A stretch of 64,000 nt of DNA from Streptantibioticus cattleyicolor NRRL 8057 = DSM 46488 (GTDB lineage Bacteria; Actinomycetota; Actinomycetes; Streptomycetales; Streptomycetaceae), in the NCBI RefSeq assembly GCF_000240165.1, contig NC_017586.1:3224001-3288000 (forward strand). Direction: 5' to 3'. The translations under genes and the position numbers were made by a program. This document shows, in pieces, positions 36,662-61,179 of the stretch. A model generated the notes under the pieces. It did no database searches and had not been told where the DNA came from. It saw only the letters and a list, made by a program, of their open reading frames with translations. The first letter of the stretch is position 1, and every line of letters begins with the position of its first letter.

Positions 36662-39600
36662 TCAGTCCGGCGATCCGGCGCGGTCGTCGGTGAACAGCTC
36701 CCGGACGCGGCCGAGGGCGCCGGCCAGATCGCGGGCGCTGCCGCGTCCGAAGGCCTCCGCGAAACGCTCCTCGCCGAGTGCGGCGCACACCTCGGCGAGG
36801 AGCGTCGCCATGTCGGGCGGCAGTGGCTCGGGGGAGGCCCGCAACACCGTGAAGGCGCCGAGGAGTTCGGCCGCTTCGGCGGGCCTGCCGTCCAGCAGGG
36901 CGAGCAGCGCCAGCACCTCGGCGGCGTAGGTGGCGGCCATCCGGATCTCCGGCCCGGAGCCCAGGGCGCACGCCTGCCGCAGCCGGCGCCGGGCCCGCTC
37001 CGCGTCACCGAGGGCCAGCGCGACCCGGCCGTGGGCGATGAGAACGGCGGAACGGGTGCCGTCGCCGGAGAAGGAACGGGCCGGGCACTGGGCCAGCGCC
37101 AGCTCGCACAGCCGGTCGGCCTCGGCCAGGTCACCGGTGCGCCGGGCCACCTCGGCGAGGGCGAGATGGCCGCGGGCGGCGAACTCCGGGGCGCCGCAGC
37201 GCCGCGCCAGTTCCAGCGTGCGCCGTGCGTCGGCCCGCGCCTCCTCGTACCGCCCGGTGTCCAGCAGGAAGCGGGACCGGTTGACCACCAGCTCGGCCAT
37301 GTCCTCCACCGAGCCCAACTCGGCGGCCAGGGCGAGCGCTTCGTCGGAGAGCGCGACGGCCCGCGCGTTCTCGCCCCGGAAGCCGGCCAGTTCGGCGAGG
37401 ACTCCGAGCGAGGTGATCATGCCCCACCGGTCGCCCAGCGCGCGGAACGCCTCCAGCCCCTCGGTGAACTCCTCGGCCGCCCCGGCCGCGTCCCCCTCCA
37501 TCCACCACCGCTGGTAGGCCGAGCCGACGTACAGCAGCGCCCGGAACCAGGGATCGGGGTGGTCGCGCAGCGGCGCCGCGGCCCGCTCGGCCATCTCCGG
37601 GCCGGTCGGCAGCCCGGCGAACGGCGCCCACAGCAGCGTCAGCCCGGGGTAGTCCGGGGTGATGCCGCCGGAGGCCTCCATCACGGCGCGGCACGCGGCC
37701 ACATGGTCGGCGTACCCGCCGATGTCCCGCATGCCGAAGACCGCGGCGAGCACCAGCCCGACGTACTCCTGCCCCAGACCGTCGGGCGGCTGGGGGCCGA
37801 GCTTGCCGAGCAGGTCGCGGGCGGGGGCGGCGCCCTCGTAGCGCAGCCCGCGCAGGATCCAGTAGGTGGAGAGCACGCCGAAGAAACGCAGGGCGGTGAC
37901 GGTGTCGCCGTCGGCGATGCTGCGGCGCAGGGCGGCGTGGAGGTTGTCGTGGTCGGTGAAGAGCGCTTCCAGGCCGGCGAGTTGGCGGTGGCCGCGCAGT
38001 TCCGGTTCGGTCTCGGCGGCGAGGCGCAGGAAGTGGCGGGCGTGGGCGCGGCGCACCGCCTGTTCCTCGCCGGCCTCGGAGAGCCGTTCGGCCGCGTAGG
38101 CCCGGATGGTCTCCAGCATGCGGTAGCGCACGGACGTGCCGGGGTGCCGGTGGTCGTGCCGGTGGTCGTGCTGGTGGTCGGCGACGACCAGCGACTTGTC
38201 CACCAGTGACTCGACCAGGTCGAGGACGTCGGCGGGGTCGATGACCGGGCCGTCCCCTGGGGCGCGGGCGGGGTCCGGTGACGGGTCGGCGCAGACCTCC
38301 TCGGCCGCCGCCAGCGACCAGCTCCCCGCGAAGACCGAGGCGCGCCGCAGCACGGCCCGCTCGTCCTCCGGCAGCAGCCCCCAGCTCCAGTCCACGACGC
38401 CGCGCAGCGTGCGCTGGCGCGGCTGCGCGGTACGGCTGCCCCGGGAGAGCAGCCGGAAGAGTTCGGCGGGACGCACCCCGGGGCGGTACCCCAGCTCGCC
38501 GCCGATGGCCGGTATCCCCAGCCGTTCGGCGATCTCGGCGGCCGACAGCGACCGCAGCCGCGCCGCCGCCAGCTCGATGGCGAGCGGCAGTCCGTCGAGC
38601 GCGGCACAGATCCCGCGGACGGCGTCGAGGTCGCGGGCGAGGTCGAAGTCCGGGCGCACCGCGCCGGCCCGTTCGGCGAAGAGCCGCACCGCCGGGGAGT
38701 CCATCGCCTGCCGCGGCGCGGCCTGGACGGTCGGCAACGGAAGCGGGGGCACCGGGCAGAGCACCTCGCCGGTGATGCCCAGCGCCTCCCGGCTGGTGGC
38801 GAGGACGCTCAGCCCGGGGCAGTCGGCGAGCACCCGGTCCACCAGCGTGGCCACCGAGGCCACCACGTGCTCGCAGTTGTCCAGCACCAGCAGGAGCCGG
38901 CGGCCCGCCAGCGCCGCCGCGAGCCGTTCCAGCGGCTCGTGCCGCGCCCCGGCTCCGGCGCCGGAACGCAGCGCGGACTCCCGCAGCCCCAGCGCGGCCA
39001 GCACCGCCTGGGTCACCCCGCCGTCGTCCGCCACGCCGGTCAGGTCGACGAAGGCCCGGTCGCCGACGTGGCGTCCGGCGGCCTCCACCGACAACCGCGT
39101 CTTGCCCGAACCGCCCGGGCCGAGCAGGGTCACCAGGCGTGCGCCGCCGAGCAGTTGGGCCAGGCGGTCGAGCTCTTCGGCGCGGCCTACGAAGCTGGTG
39201 AGCTGGGCGGGGAAGCGGCCGTAGGGGGGCGGCGGTGTTTCACCTGAAACGGCGGCGGGGGCGGGGGCTGTTTCACGTGAAACAGTGACCGTTTCACGGC
39301 TGGGGGTTCCGCCGTCGGCTTCGCGGCCGGGTGTTTCACGTGAAACACCGACGGGCTCACCCCGGAGGACGGCCAGGTGGGCGGCGGTCAGCTCAGGGCC
39401 CGGGTCGGCCCCGAGGGTGTCGGCGAGTTCGCGTCGCGCCTCCTCGTACACGCGCAGCGCATCGGCCTGCCGTCCGGCGCCGTGCAGGGCGCGCATCAGC
39501 TGGGCGCGCAGCCGTTCGCGCAGTGGGTGGGTGGCGGTCAACTCGGTGAGTTCGGCGACGAGTTCGCGGTGACGGCCGAGGGCGAGGTCGGCCTCCACGC

Positions 39601-40111
39601 GGTCCTCCACGGCGGTCGTCCGCAGTTCCTCCAGGCGGGTGATCTGCCCGGCCGCGAAGGGGGCGGCGCCCACGTCGGCCAGCGCGGCGCCCCGCCACAG
39701 CGCCAGCCCTTCCCGCAGCGCCTCCGCCGCGCGCGGGAACTCCCCCGCCGCCAGCGCCTCCCGCCCCCGCGCGGCCAACCGGGTGAACCGGTGGACGTCC
39801 ACCTCGTCCGGTTCCACCACGAGCCGGTAGCCGGCCGGATGGTTCTCGATCGGCGCCCCCAGCGCCGACCGCAGCCGCGACACCTGGGACTGGAGCGCGT
39901 TGCCGACCCCGGCCGGCGGCTCGTCCCGGTACAACCCGTCGATCAGCCGCTCCAGCGGCACGATCCGCCCGGCGTCCAGCAGGAGCATCGCCAGCAACGC
40001 GCGCCGCGCCGGCCCGCCCAGGCCCACCGCCCCGCCCGTGGCCGACCGGGCCCACGTCTCCCCCAGAATCCCGAAGCGCACCCAGCGATTCTGCCGTACA
40101 CCCCCGGTCAT
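36662..40111 (-). CDS. AfsR/SARP-type regulator: winged helix, BTAD, NB-ARC and TPR-like domains
   Basis: The 1149-residue regulator has an N-terminal SARP winged helix at about 10-100 (VRFGILGETW ... LQSQVSRLRSALG) and a BTAD domain to about 250. The linker contains the repeats VSRET, PSRET, VSRET and VSGET (256-292). An NB-ARC/AAA-like ATPase has the P-loop GPGGSGKT near residue 330 and LLLVLDNCEH, followed by long helical TPR-like repeats. AfsR-like proteins activate transcription by binding direct repeats near -35, often for secondary metabolism. ATG 40111 overlaps the stop of the upstream XRE gene (ATGA). In-frame GTG 40081 (VRFGILG) is the alternative. The linker DNA contains parS-like sites. 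Confidence 0.9.
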   Translation of the reverse strand: MTGGVRQNRWVRFGILGETWARSATGGAVGLGGPARRALLAMLLLDAGRIVPLERLIDGLYRDEPPAGVGNALQSQVSRLRSALGAPIENHPAGYRLVVEPDEVDVHRFTRLAARGREALAAGEFPRAAEALREGLALWRGAALADVGAAPFAAGQITRLEELRTTAVEDRVEADLALGRHRELVAELTELTATHPLRERLRAQLMRALHGAGRQADALRVYEEARRELADTLGADPGPELTAAHLAVLRGEPVGVSRETPGREADGGTPSRETVTVSRETAPAPAAVSGETPPPPYGRFPAQLTSFVGRAEELDRLAQLLGGARLVTLLGPGGSGKTRLSVEAAGRHVGDRAFVDLTGVADDGGVTQAVLAALGLRESALRSGAGAGARHEPLERLAAALAGRRLLLVLDNCEHVVASVATLVDRVLADCPGLSVLATSREALGITGEVLCPVPPLPLPTVQAAPRQAMDSPAVRLFAERAGAVRPDFDLARDLDAVRGICAALDGLPLAIELAAARLRSLSAAEIAERLGIPAIGGELGYRPGVRPAELFRLLSRGSRTAQPRQRTLRGVVDWSWGLLPEDERAVLRRASVFAGSWSLAAAEEVCADPSPDPARAPGDGPVIDPADVLDLVESLVDKSLVVADHQHDHRHDHRHPGTSVRYRMLETIRAYAAERLSEAGEEQAVRRAHARHFLRLAAETEPELRGHRQLAGLEALFTDHDNLHAALRRSIADGDTVTALRFFGVLSTYWILRGLRYEGAAPARDLLGKLGPQPPDGLGQEYVGLVLAAVFGMRDIGGYADHVAACRAVMEASGGITPDYPGLTLLWAPFAGLPTGPEMAERAAAPLRDHPDPWFRALLYVGSAYQRWWMEGDAAGAAEEFTEGLEAFRALGDRWGMITSLGVLAELAGFRGENARAVALSDEALALAAELGSVEDMAELVVNRSRFLLDTGRYEEARADARRTLELARRCGAPEFAARGHLALAEVARRTGDLAEADRLCELALAQCPARSFSGDGTRSAVLIAHGRVALALGDAERARRRLRQACALGSGPEIRMAATYAAEVLALLALLDGRPAEAAELLGAFTVLRASPEPLPPDMATLLAEVCAALGEERFAEAFGRGSARDLAGALGRVRELFTDDRAGSPD
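39237..39346. other. Cluster of parS-like (ParB-binding) sites inside the SARP gene
   Basis: The parS core GTTTCACGTGAAAC is present perfectly at 39270-39283 and 39333-39346, each as the 16-bp palindrome TGTTTCACGTGAAACA. A third copy with one change (GTTTCACCTGAAAC) lies at 39237-39250, and a half site GTTTCACG at 39291-39298. All are in the same reading phase and encode V/P-S-R/G-E-T. They lie about 20 kb from oriC, where Streptomyces parS sites cluster. Confidence 0.85.
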
Positions 40112-41457
40112 CCCTCCCGGCGGATCCACTCGCCGCCGCCCAGGGGATAGTCGTATCCGGGACGTCCCGCGCCCGCGCTGGTACGGAACGGGATGCCGTT
40201 GTCGTCGATGTGGACGGTGCCGTGGCGGACACCGCTCGACCAGTCCAGGGCGAGGTCCCAGCGGACGTCGTGCGCCTTGGTGTGGGCGGTGACGTAGAAG
40301 ACCTCCGGGTCGGACTCGCTGACCTTGTACGGGAAGTCGCGCTGGCCGTTCTTGACGGTGACCGTGGGGCTGCCGTTGTCCAGGTCGATGTCGAACGACT
40401 TGGTGTCCACGCCACCGCCGCAGCCGACGCCCATCGAGTAGTCGTTCCAGGCGAGCGGGGCGCCCTTGGTCACGACGCGGACGTGCAGCGCCTCCAGGAC
40501 GACGGTCTCCGCGCCGGTGCCCTGGACGGTCAGGCCGACCCGCTGCTCGCCCGAGGAGACCGCGCCGTAGGCGGCGGACCAGCGCGGGGCGTCCTGCTCG
40601 CTCGCGGGCGGGCCCATCTGCGCGGGGCCGCTGTCGACGAGGAAGTGCTGGCTGCACGGGCTGTCGTAGACGTACGGACGCACGCCGACGACCGGCGCGG
40701 TGGCGCCGCTGCCGGTGTCCGCCCCGCCCGCGCTCCGCCCACCGCCGCCGTCCTGGCCGGCGCCGGGCGTACCACTGCTGGAGCCGGGGGCGGTGGGGGC
40801 GCGGTGCGACGCGCCCGGGGAGGCGGAGGCCGACGCGGACGCCCCGCCGGTGACGGCCCGGCTGCTCACCGGCGCGGCCGAGCCGACGGCCCGCTCGTCC
40901 CCCGCGGTCCTCTCGCCTCCGTCGAACGGCGCGTTGGCGACGAGCACCACGGCCGCCAGCACGGTGGCCGCGGCGGCGGAGGCGATCAGCGCGGTACGGC
41001 GGCGCCGTGGCGAGGCGGAGTCGCCGGGTGCGTCGGTGACGACGAGTTCGTCGCCCGCGTCCCTGCCCCGGTCCGGGTCCCCGCTCACCGACGGGGCGAC
41101 GACCGGACGCGGCGGCCCGGCCGGTTCCGGACCATCACCCTCGGCCGCGTTCTCCTCCCGCGCGGACTCCGCCACCGTCGGCCGGTCCGCCCTGCGCCCG
41201 CGCTCCGCGTCCGCCAGGATCCAGCGCCGGTGCAGCTCCACCAGTTCCTGCGGCGTCCCCCCGCACACCCGCGCCAGGCGCTCCACCGGGGCGTACTCGT
41301 GCGGCACCGCGGTGCCGTTGCAGTAGCGGTGCAGCGTCGACGTGCTCATGTGCAGCCGCTTGGCGAGGGCCCCGTAGCTCAGCCCCGAGCGGTCCTTGAG
41401 TTCCCGCAGCAGCTGCGCGAAAGCTTCCGGCCCTTCGGCCCCGGTCGCCCCAGACAC
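40108..41457 (-). CDS. Membrane-anchored XRE-family regulator with extracytoplasmic domain
   Basis: The 449-residue protein has an N-terminal Cro/C1-type helix-turn-helix at about 8-65 (LKDRSGLSYGALAKRLHMSTSTLHRYCNG), a charged linker, and a membrane helix near 160-185 after RRRR (TALIASAAAATVLAAVVLV). A Ser/Gly/Ala-rich spacer and an extracytoplasmic beta-rich domain of about 190 residues follow. GTG 41457 is chosen because GGAGG lies 5 bases upstream. ATG 41469 is in frame just before it. Its TGA overlaps the SARP ATG, so sensor and SARP activator are likely co-translated. Domain order suggests a one-component transmembrane sensor. Confidence 0.82.
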   Translation of the reverse strand: MSGATGAEGPEAFAQLLRELKDRSGLSYGALAKRLHMSTSTLHRYCNGTAVPHEYAPVERLARVCGGTPQELVELHRRWILADAERGRRADRPTVAESAREENAAEGDGPEPAGPPRPVVAPSVSGDPDRGRDAGDELVVTDAPGDSASPRRRRTALIASAAAATVLAAVVLVANAPFDGGERTAGDERAVGSAAPVSSRAVTGGASASASASPGASHRAPTAPGSSSGTPGAGQDGGGGRSAGGADTGSGATAPVVGVRPYVYDSPCSQHFLVDSGPAQMGPPASEQDAPRWSAAYGAVSSGEQRVGLTVQGTGAETVVLEALHVRVVTKGAPLAWNDYSMGVGCGGGVDTKSFDIDLDNGSPTVTVKNGQRDFPYKVSESDPEVFYVTAHTKAHDVRWDLALDWSSGVRHGTVHIDDNGIPFRTSAGAGRPGYDYPLGGGEWIRREG

Positions 41458-41643
41458 CCGTTCCTCCATCCCCCCGTGTCCCGTTCCAGCGTTCCAGGGC
41501 ACCCCCATATCCCCTGGCCGGAGCCGAAGTTGGCGTTCCAACGTACCCAACTCGCCGCCGACTGTGGCGGCTGGGACGGATCGCCTCCCAAGCTTCGGTC
41601 ATCCAAGCATCAACCCGATCCGTGACCGAGGGGAAACGACCAC

Positions 41644-42363
41644 ATGTCCAGGATCCGCACCACCTCCCGCACCCGTCTGCTCGTCGCCGCCGCGACCGTC
41701 GCGCTGGCCGGGTTCTCCCTGACCGCGTGCGACAACAACACGGGCCTCCACGTCGAGGGCGCCGCGCCGGCCGCCTCCGTGACCACGCCGTCCTCTCCCA
41801 GTGCCCCGTCTCCCAGTGCCCCGTCTCCCTCGGTCGCCGTCTCCGGTTCCGGTCCGGTCGCCGGCAAGACCACGTCCACCGGTTCCCGGCCGACCGCGCA
41901 CGGGACCACGGCGAAGGCACCCGTCTCCTCCGGCAAACCGGTCACCTGCGAGGGGTCCAACACCAAGACCGTCGCGGCCCTGCTCAACCGCCCCCTGAAC
42001 CACATGCTGCTCACCGTCACCAACACCGGCAGCAAGCGGTGCTACCTCTACGGCTACCCGGCGGTGGCCTTCGGCGAGGCCCAGTCCGTGCCGCCGGTCA
42101 TCGAGGAGTCCAAGCCGCAAGCCGTCGTCACCCTCGAACCGGGCCAGTCCGGCTACGCCTCCGTCAGCCTCTCCACCGGCGACGGCAGCGCCGAACACGG
42201 CCACACCGAAAAGTCCCTGGCCGTCTACTTCCAAGGCCGCTCCGGCAACGAAAGCGTCGGCTCCGGCGCCCACCCCTCACTCCCCTCCCAGGGCGTCTAC
42301 ATCGACGACTCCCTCAAGGTCACCTACTGGCAGCCGTCCCTCGACACCGCCCTCGACTGGTGA
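41644..42363 (+). CDS. DUF4232 lipoprotein
   Basis: The 239-residue protein has a lipoprotein signal peptide (RTTSRTRLLVAAATVALAGFS) ending in lipobox LTAC with Cys29. A Ser/Pro/Thr-rich linker (about 45-95) leads to a C-terminal beta-sandwich with VTNTGSKRCYLYGYPAV and SLKVTYWQPSLDTALDW, typical of DUF4232. It is anchored on the outer face of the membrane and divergent from the XRE-SARP operon, so it could be its target or signal partner. ATG 41644 is preceded by GAGGGGAAACG. Confidence 0.85.
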   Translation: MSRIRTTSRTRLLVAAATVALAGFSLTACDNNTGLHVEGAAPAASVTTPSSPSAPSPSAPSPSVAVSGSGPVAGKTTSTGSRPTAHGTTAKAPVSSGKPVTCEGSNTKTVAALLNRPLNHMLLTVTNTGSKRCYLYGYPAVAFGEAQSVPPVIEESKPQAVVTLEPGQSGYASVSLSTGDGSAEHGHTEKSLAVYFQGRSGNESVGSGAHPSLPSQGVYIDDSLKVTYWQPSLDTALDW

Positions 42364-42405: not shown

Positions 42406-42787
42406 TGGTTCGAACCGTAAGCTGTCGTTCCGTGCGACCCCTGTCATGGCGGAGGAGGGACGCCCGGTATGCCGGAGTGTGCGGAAGTCTGCGGAAACGG
42501 CGTGCTGCGCTGAGGAAGTCCGAGGTGGCGGCGTGTGGTCCCCGCGCGTGCGGGGGTGGTCCCCGCGTCCGCGGGGACGCGGAAACCAACCCGTCCGACG
42601 TCAACTCCATCGAGCGCGAACGACGAGGGCCACGGGCGCCCGACGCGTCAGCAACGCGACTGGGCGAATCGCATACGCCCCTGACCGCGGCGTCGCCTTG
42701 TCCGCCCTGCCGACGTTTCAGGAATGGGGAAAGGCATATCCCGCTGCGAGGCGGTCGAGCCTCGGTGTTCTCCAGCGGAAAGGCTTG
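42406..42787. other. Gene-poor stretch with a lone CRISPR-repeat-like element
   Basis: I see no convincing gene here. It contains the CRISPR-repeat-like sequence at 42535-42582 (separate entry). Composition is a little less GC-rich and codon-like structure is absent, consistent with decayed accessory DNA. Confidence 0.4.
42535..42582. repeat. Type I-E CRISPR-repeat-like sequence, solitary
   Basis: The 29 bases at 42535-42563 begin GTGGTCCCCGCGCGTGCGGG and end GTGGTCCC, matching the length and stem (CCCCGCGCGTGCGGGG) of actinobacterial type I-E repeats. A second degenerate unit (GTGGTCCCCGCGTCCGCGGGG) begins 21 bases later and overlaps it, so no spacer fits between them. No array and no cas genes are present. 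It is probably a relic or a chance GC hairpin. Confidence 0.45.
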
Positions 42788-58560: not shown

Positions 58561-59140
58561 CCCGCGGCTCGGTTGTGCACAGGCCCCACTTCGATCTTGG
58601 CTTCCCGGACTCTATGTGTAGTCGTAGTAATAGGGGTTGTGGATACCGTGGATAACCGGTTCCGCCGCAGGTCAGCCCAGGTTTTTTATCCACCGGGCCT
58701 GTGGGTGGCGGCGGTGGACAACCCGGGTCCGCTGTGGACAGCCGGAAGTTGTGCACACCCCATACACAGGGAGAGGGCAGTTCTCCCCATCGTTGTCCCC
58801 AGGAATACCCAGGTTCTCCCCAGCCCAACCCACCCCCTGGGTGTGACGCCTTTCACTCCATCCGGCGATGGGGGGTGGCGAGTTGCCGAACAGTGGACAG
58901 CGCTGTGGAGAAGCTGTGGGTAACCGCCCGGACCCTGTGGGCAGCCGGTGGACAACGCTCGGCGCGGGTTGTGGGCGAAGTGGTTGTCCACAGGCTGTGG
59001 AGAACCTTTTCCCACAATTCCACACCCCGCTGACCTGCGATGATCCTTCCGTCGCCATCCCCCTTGTGGAGGGGGTCGGGACAACTTCGTCCTCCCCAGC
59101 CTGTGGATGGCGGATCGGCGGCGAACCTGTGGAGCAGTGT
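58561..59140. other. Chromosomal replication origin oriC
   Basis: The dnaN-dnaA intergenic region is packed with DnaA boxes. Perfect TTGTCCACA lies at 58984-58992. Near matches include 58573, 58638, 58647, 58686, 58713, 58733, 58749, 58793, 58904, 58915, 58947, 58996 and 59127, in both orientations. An AT-richer patch (TTTTTTATC, 58682-58690) lies within it. Streptomyces oriC has about 19 boxes, many non-consensus, in the same place. No gene is present. Confidence 0.95.
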
Positions 59141-59242
59141 GCCGCCGGAGGGTGAATTCGAACAGCGGGTGTGGACGTGTCGGGGCGGCGGAACGGGCGC
59201 GGACGGCCCGGCCCTCCGGGCGCGCACGGCGAGGAGGACGCC

Positions 59243-59276
59243 GCAGGCCCCCGGAAGACGCCTTCCGGGGGCCTGC
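59243..59276 (-). terminator. dnaA terminator
   Basis: GCAGGCCCCCGGAAG (59243-59257) and CTTCCGGGGGCCTGC (59262-59276) form a perfect 15-bp stem with loop ACGC, 50 bases after the dnaA stop. It separates dnaA transcription from oriC. Confidence 0.85.
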
Positions 59277-59325
59277 GGGGACGCGTACGGGGCCCGTGGA
59301 GCCGGGGACGGGGCCGTTGCGGCGG

Positions 59326-61179
59326 TCAGCTCTTGATGCGGTTGGTCAGCTCGGTGACCTGGTTGTAGATGGACCGCCGCTCGGCCATCAGGGCGCGGAT
59401 CTTGCGGTCGGCGTGCATCACCGTGGTGTGGTCGCGGCCCCCGAAGAGGGCGCCGATCTTCGGCAGCGACAGGTCGGTCAGCTCCCGGCACAGGTACATG
59501 GCGATCTGCCGCGCGGTCACCAGCACCCGGCTGCGGGAGGAACCGCACAGGTCCTCCACGGTGAGCCCGAAGTACGCGGCGGTCTCCGCCATGATCGCGT
59601 TGCCGGAGATCTCCGGTACCGCGTCCTCGCCGCCCGGGATCAGGTCCTTCAGGACGATCTCGGTCAGCTGGAGGTCCACCGGCTGGCGGTTGAGGCTGGC
59701 GAACGCGGTGACCCGGATCAGCGCCCCCTCCAGCTCGCGGATGTTGCGCGAGATCCGGGAGGCGATGAACTCCAGCACCTCCGGCGGGGCGTTGAGCTGC
59801 TCCTGCACCGCCTTCTTGCGCAGGATGGCGATCCGGGTCTCCAGCTCGGGCGGCTGGACGTCGGTGATCAGGCCCCACTCGAAGCGGTTGCGCAGCCGGT
59901 CCTCCAGGGTCACCAGCTGCTTGGGCGGCCGGTCCGAGGAGAGCACGATCTGCTTGTTGGCGTTGTGCAGGGTGTTGAAGGTGTGGAAGAACTCCTCCTG
60001 CGTCGACTCCTTGCTCGCCAGGAACTGGATGTCGTCGACCAGCAGGATGTCCATCTCGCGGTAGCGCTTGCGGAACGCGTCGCCCTTGCCGTCGCGGATG
60101 GAGTTGATGAACTCGTTGGTGAACTCCTCCGAGCTGACGTACCGCACCCGGGTGCCCGGGTACAGGCTGCGGGCGTAGTGCCCGATCGCGTGCAGCAGGT
60201 GGGTCTTGCCCAGCCCTGACTCGCCGTAGATGAACAGCGGGTTGTACGCCTTGGCGGGGGCTTCGGCGACGGCCACCGCGGCGGCGTGCGCGAAGCGGTT
60301 GGAGGCGCCGATGACGAAGGTGTCGAAGAGGTACTTGGGGTTGAGCCGGGCGGTCGGCTCGCCGGGGCCGGGCGCCGGGGCCGGCTGCGCGGCGAGCGGG
60401 CCGGGGGCGCCGCTGGACGCCGGGAGCGCGTCGGCCGGCCGGACCCCGCCACCGGGGCGCTCGGGCGGCTGCGGCGCCGGGTAACCCGTCTGCTGGCCGT
60501 AGTCGGGCTGCCCGAACTCCTGCTGGGTGTACTCCTGTTGCTGCCCGTGCTGGCCGTACTCCTGCTGCTGGCCGTAGTCGCGCTGGCCGCCGCCGTACGG
60601 GTCGCGGTCGGGGTAACCGCCGCGCCGGGGCTGCTGCCAGGCGTCGGTGCCCTCGGGTCCGCCGTGGCCGTGCTCCTGCGGGCGGCCGTGGGCGTACGGG
60701 TCGGAGTGGGCCGGGGGCGGCCAGCCGCCGGACTCGTGGCCGGAGGGGTAGTCGGGGTACGCCCGGCGGATCACCGGACCGTCCTCCGCGGAACGCGGGT
60801 AGTCCTCGTAGTCGCGGCGCTGCTCGGCGTAGCGCCCCGGGGCCGGGGCGGGCGGCTGCTGGGGCGCGGGCTGCCGGTCGGCGGCGGGGGCCTGCGGGGC
60901 CGCGGCGGCCGTGCTGGAGTCCACGGTGATCGCGATGCGGATCGGGCGGCCGAACTCCCGGGTCAGCCCCTCGGTGATCACCGGCAGCAGCCGGCCCTCC
61001 AGGACGCCCTTGGCGTACTCGTTGGGCGCGGCCAGCAACGCGGTGTCGGCCACCAGCGCCAGCGCCTGGCAGGCCTTGAGCCACCGCTGGTCCTTGGCCT
61101 CGACACCCTGGCCGTCGGCGAGGAGGTGATCCAGCACACGCGGCCACACTGCGGCAAGATCGGCAGTTACATCAGCCAC
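59326..61179 (-). CDS. dnaA: Chromosomal replication initiator DnaA
   Basis: The 617-residue protein has domain I (about 1-90; [32 protein letters not shown]), then a very long disordered domain II (about 95-270) rich in Pro, Gln, Tyr and Gly with QQQEYGQ-like repeats. The AAA+ domain III has [13 protein letters not shown] and [13 protein letters not shown]. Domain IV has the DnaA-box-binding [15 protein letters not shown]. The enlarged domain II is typical of Streptomyces. GTG 61179. It initiates replication at the adjacent oriC and is probably autoregulated through the box at 61342. Confidence 0.98.

Follow-up and report, generated by a model that had tools for sequence, protein, structure and literature searches.

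The window, that is, the whole stretch of 64,000 nucleotides analysed here, carries on its minus strand a gene for a SARP-type regulator of 1149 amino acids (36662-40111). Its architecture is that of a large, AfsR-like SARP, with winged-helix, BTAD, NB-ARC/AAA_16 and TPR regions; in the Pfam comparison BTAD (8e-48) and TPR_12 scored over the cut-off, Trans_reg_C barely over it, and NB-ARC and AAA_16 under it. From its domains only, the protein is predicted to act as an antibiotic-type regulator. Upstream, on the same strand, lies an XRE/HTH_31 gene (40108-41550, the longest open reading frame, start uncertain), which overlaps the SARP start by four bases, ATGA. The initial annotation had treated the two genes as coupled partners; as a conserved unit this pairing was rejected, since a tblastn search with the XRE protein gave no relative within about 1.5 kb of any SARP orthologue. 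At 42537-42580, immediately downstream of the gene at 41644-42363, there are two short repeats that look like GGTCCCCGCG units of the CRISPR type.

Between the BTAD and NB-ARC regions there is a variable linker (39212-39364, minus strand, ends approximate), recognised in alignment A1 as an unconserved stretch with conserved flanks. As the initial annotation had described, two perfect parS sites, one mismatch copy and one half site, none of them assigned to a strand, fall here within 110 bp of the SARP gene. The perfect sites, at 39270-39283 and 39333-39346, share the exact word GTTTCACGTGAAAC, match the extended parS consensus TGTTTCACGTGAAACA at 16 of 16 positions and are read as VSRET. The copy at 39237-39250 (GTTTCACCTGAAAC), read as VSGET, has one core mismatch and is probably a decayed site, since the mismatch breaks the CACGTG core and almost all other sites in the genome are perfect. 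The half site (GTTTCACG, 39291-39298), with the half-site word GTTTCACGG at 39291, is part of PSRET. No further sites with two mismatches or fewer were found in the window, where 0.05 are expected by shuffling.

Reading frame and genomic position of the sites

All four sites lie in a single phase of the minus-strand SARP reading frame and are read VSRET, PSRET, VSRET and VSGET. The phase and the translations had been described correctly at the outset; however, they are weak evidence, since one of the three phases of the parS word reads the stop TGA, which leaves only VSRET or FHVK possible in genes, and the sites in parA and parB use the same phase. Elsewhere in this genome, VSRET-phase parS occur in the N-terminal region of ParA and the linker of ParB, and a putative zinc-finger protein, whose zf-HC2 match is under the cut-off, has two (G000:C2:3289717, 3290892, 3294978 and 3295011). 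This genome thus shows a general tendency to place parS in loose regions of proteins. The sites in parA and parB resemble those studied here in their core, their phase and their N-terminal or linker location; unlike the SARP linker, which carries a group, these two partition genes have one VSRET-phase site each. The other phase was seen in three genomes, in a gene of ~1170 amino acids that apparently starts at an ATG overlapping parS (MFHVKP; G063:C1:4096037, G059:C1:3907591 and G065:C1:4932596).

The genome contains 20 perfect parS, all on C2 between 3.10 and 3.51 Mb, i.e., within 0.41 Mb round oriC and parAB, and the reversed control word gave 0 matches in the genome. The probable oriC is the densest 1 kb of DnaA boxes (58572-59572, no strand assigned), located between dnaA and recF/gyrB (at 60.2, 56.1 and 53 kb of the window, respectively). 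The genes parA and parB lie just beyond the window end, inside the parS zone. The SARP sites are ~19 kb from the densest DnaA boxes (window ~58.6 kb), on the gyrB side (left arm), which bears out the earlier placement about 20 kb from oriC in a zone typical of Streptomyces parS. Since nearly all remaining parS are on the parAB side of oriC, the SARP sites are the origin-nearest parS of the left arm. The majority on the parAB side fits the right-of-oriC bias reported for Streptomycetaceae (PMC8743542), in contrast to which a group of sites is found here on the gyrB side, inside one SARP gene. Otherwise the arrangement is like the parS cluster of Streptomyces, with the same type of palindrome, many sites (24 in the S. 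coelicolor chromosome and 16-17 in that of S. venezuelae; PMC4852455, PMC12511625), an origin-centred distribution and parAB alongside.

Conservation of the sites among SARP orthologues

The sites match the parS consensus, cluster round oriC near parAB and are conserved as DNA across relatives. Five further genera of the family yielded orthologues of the SARP gene (six genera with this one), the sample consisting of one related genus and one or two representatives of other genera. They are 54-62% identical to this SARP over the aligned length (alignment A1), and in the genomes checked their distance from dnaA, on the same side, is 17-31 kb. Of the 33 orthologues, this one counted, 32 have at least one GTTYCACGTGRAAC site in the linker, across the six genera. 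In a tree built from the genes after removal of the linkers, 32 SARPs including this one form one supported clade, in which 31 have a linker GTTYCACGTGRAAC; a further orthologue, L146, also has one such site. The exception is L029 (G012:C74:264641-267070), a syntenic orthologue that has a short linker and lacks parS, which is probably a natural loss. Since this gene is kept in place without the sites, they are not indispensable. Among SARPs outside the orthologue group no parS were found: not in the paralogues of this genome, not at 80 distant loci (854 kb in total), and not in 27 SARP genes taken from 13 named genomes (filed as Streptomyces in 12 cases and as Streptacidiphilus in one). A wide genome scan, which brought up mainly distant SARPs, was used only as a negative control. 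The sole orthologue among these 13 genomes, L147 of S. fildesensis INACH3013 (the same gene, with the same contig coordinates, as L123), has the site.

In the related genus to which S. fildesensis INACH3013 belongs (G057, G059, G063, G065 and G066), the consensus is relaxed to GTTYCACGTGRAAC, with the doubly changed GTTCCACGTGGAAC among its forms, and there are 13-21 sites per genome, mostly clustered near parAB and oriC in the genomes with listed positions; the reversed controls gave none. Two GTTCCACGTGGAAC matches in G063 (4075072 and 4075492) are probably not parS; they fall in the third phase of coding sequence with typical codon usage. Binding of both GTTTCAC and GTTCCAC is reported in a review for ParB of several bacteria (PMC7022226).

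Although the linkers differ greatly in length and sequence between orthologues, with conserved flanks, the codons of the sites do not. We counted 53 peptide instances in 31 orthologues, which are not independent since sequences in one genus are related. The peptides were encoded by GTTYCACGTGRAAC in every case (VSRET 25/25, VPRET 15/15, VPRGT 9/9 and VSRGT 4/4), and VSRET with non-parS codons was never found among the orthologues. All 53 instances use GTT and CGT, while the family shares elsewhere in these genes are 1% for GTT, 1.4% for TCA, 1.8% for CCA and 6.5% for CGT. From the same genes, the parS codons are expected at a frequency of ~10^-5.8 per instance; the instances being related, the product over them is not a probability. 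Moreover, 52 of the 53 instances have T immediately before the motif, against 8% elsewhere in the linkers; this base is the wobble position of a codon that specifies any of nine different amino acids among the instances. The base following the motif is A in 43 of 53. Conservation of nucleotides at synonymous positions, the orthologue comparison proposed by the initial annotation, thus gave a strongly positive result. The codon lock, the preceding T, the freely diverging linker and the parS-free distant SARP loci indicate that selection preserves the 16-bp palindrome TGTTYCACGTGRAACA as DNA and that the peptide is a by-product, as read from sequence comparison. Of the original suggestion that the palindrome is maintained both as DNA and as a peptide, the first part therefore stands; the second does not, since the peptide takes four forms that track the motif in an unconserved linker.

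Proposed ParB loading and alternative explanations

Very probably, the sites are genuine chromosomal parS of the ParABS system, on which ParB would load, hosted by a linker in which the DNA word is selected and the VSRET-type peptides are a tolerated translation. Their location in the SARP linker could be explained by the ability of a disordered, length-tolerant stretch to carry a fixed 16-bp DNA word. Following ParB biochemistry and ChIP-seq in S. venezuelae, where ParB binds at such sites and spreads over 2.5-3 kb (PMC4852455, PMC12511625), we propose that ParB dimers would load on the linker sites, clamp with CTP and slide across the adjoining few kb. ParB could then recruit SMC, helping it to load, and the segrosome would be extended leftwards of oriC, with a possible benefit to segregation.

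A functionless repeat that arose by chance or by low-complexity expansion would suit a linker that is variable and simple in composition. We reject this origin, which is the least credible of the readings considered, in view of the 0.05 sites expected per window, the confinement of all 20 genome copies to the oriC zone, the empty reversed control and the conservation across six genera. Selection of the repeated VSRET peptide itself, as a linker motif or modification site with an incidental palindrome, is only slightly less improbable: the peptides do recur at similar spacing in one phase. However, codon usage and the wobble base led us to reject this explanation, as rare codons are locked in 53/53 instances and the T at the wobble position outside the peptide is kept although the residue encoded there changes; besides, the peptide switches among its four forms exactly as GTTYCACGTGRAAC permits, and the paralogues are without it.

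The sites might also be regulatory: ParB, once loaded, would slide across the SARP gene (here together with the XRE gene) and lower or time its expression, which would link segregation to a regulator of specialised metabolism. The sites stay within the SARP regulator across genera, ParB spreading of a few kb as in S. venezuelae would suffice to cover the gene, and in P. aeruginosa the intergenic parS3 and parS4 repress neighbouring genes (PMC7022226). We nevertheless regard this addition as unlikely. The in-frame parS in parA, parB and the putative zinc-finger gene mean that hosting is not regulator-specific, and the sites lie ~800 bp inside the SARP gene, away from its promoter; the XRE partner is not conserved beside the orthologues, and the siteless L029 persists in place. 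In P. aeruginosa without ParB, other genes near sites were unchanged, the repression coming from the two intergenic sites (PMC7022226). Similarly doubtful is the broader idea that the SARP gene is a conserved left-arm parS platform whose expression would be tuned by ParB loading within it, segrosome assembly thereby timing a metabolic or developmental switch.

The presence of parS in coding sequences is already established: in P. aeruginosa nine of ten parS are predicted to lie in them and have been mutated without protein change (PMC4368675). The likeness to our case is in the coding location; a multi-site array in one protein linker is not described in the sections consulted. A search for parS together with SARP found nothing in the literature covered, which leaves aside the 2007 Livny survey and the first S. 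coelicolor parS paper (2002). As far as this literature shows, what is new is a parS group conserved across genera in a SARP linker, with the DNA word dictating the peptide. It offers a clean natural case of a DNA-binding requirement writing a protein linker, for which the wobble base serves as an internal control, and it identifies a particular left-arm group of parS in a family for which a bias to the right of oriC is reported. With its relaxed GTTYCACGTGRAAC, the related genus provides a system for studying co-evolution of ParB and its sites. Finally, where VSRET or VPRGT peptides recur in a protein of this family, they can be a sign of parS and not a protein motif.
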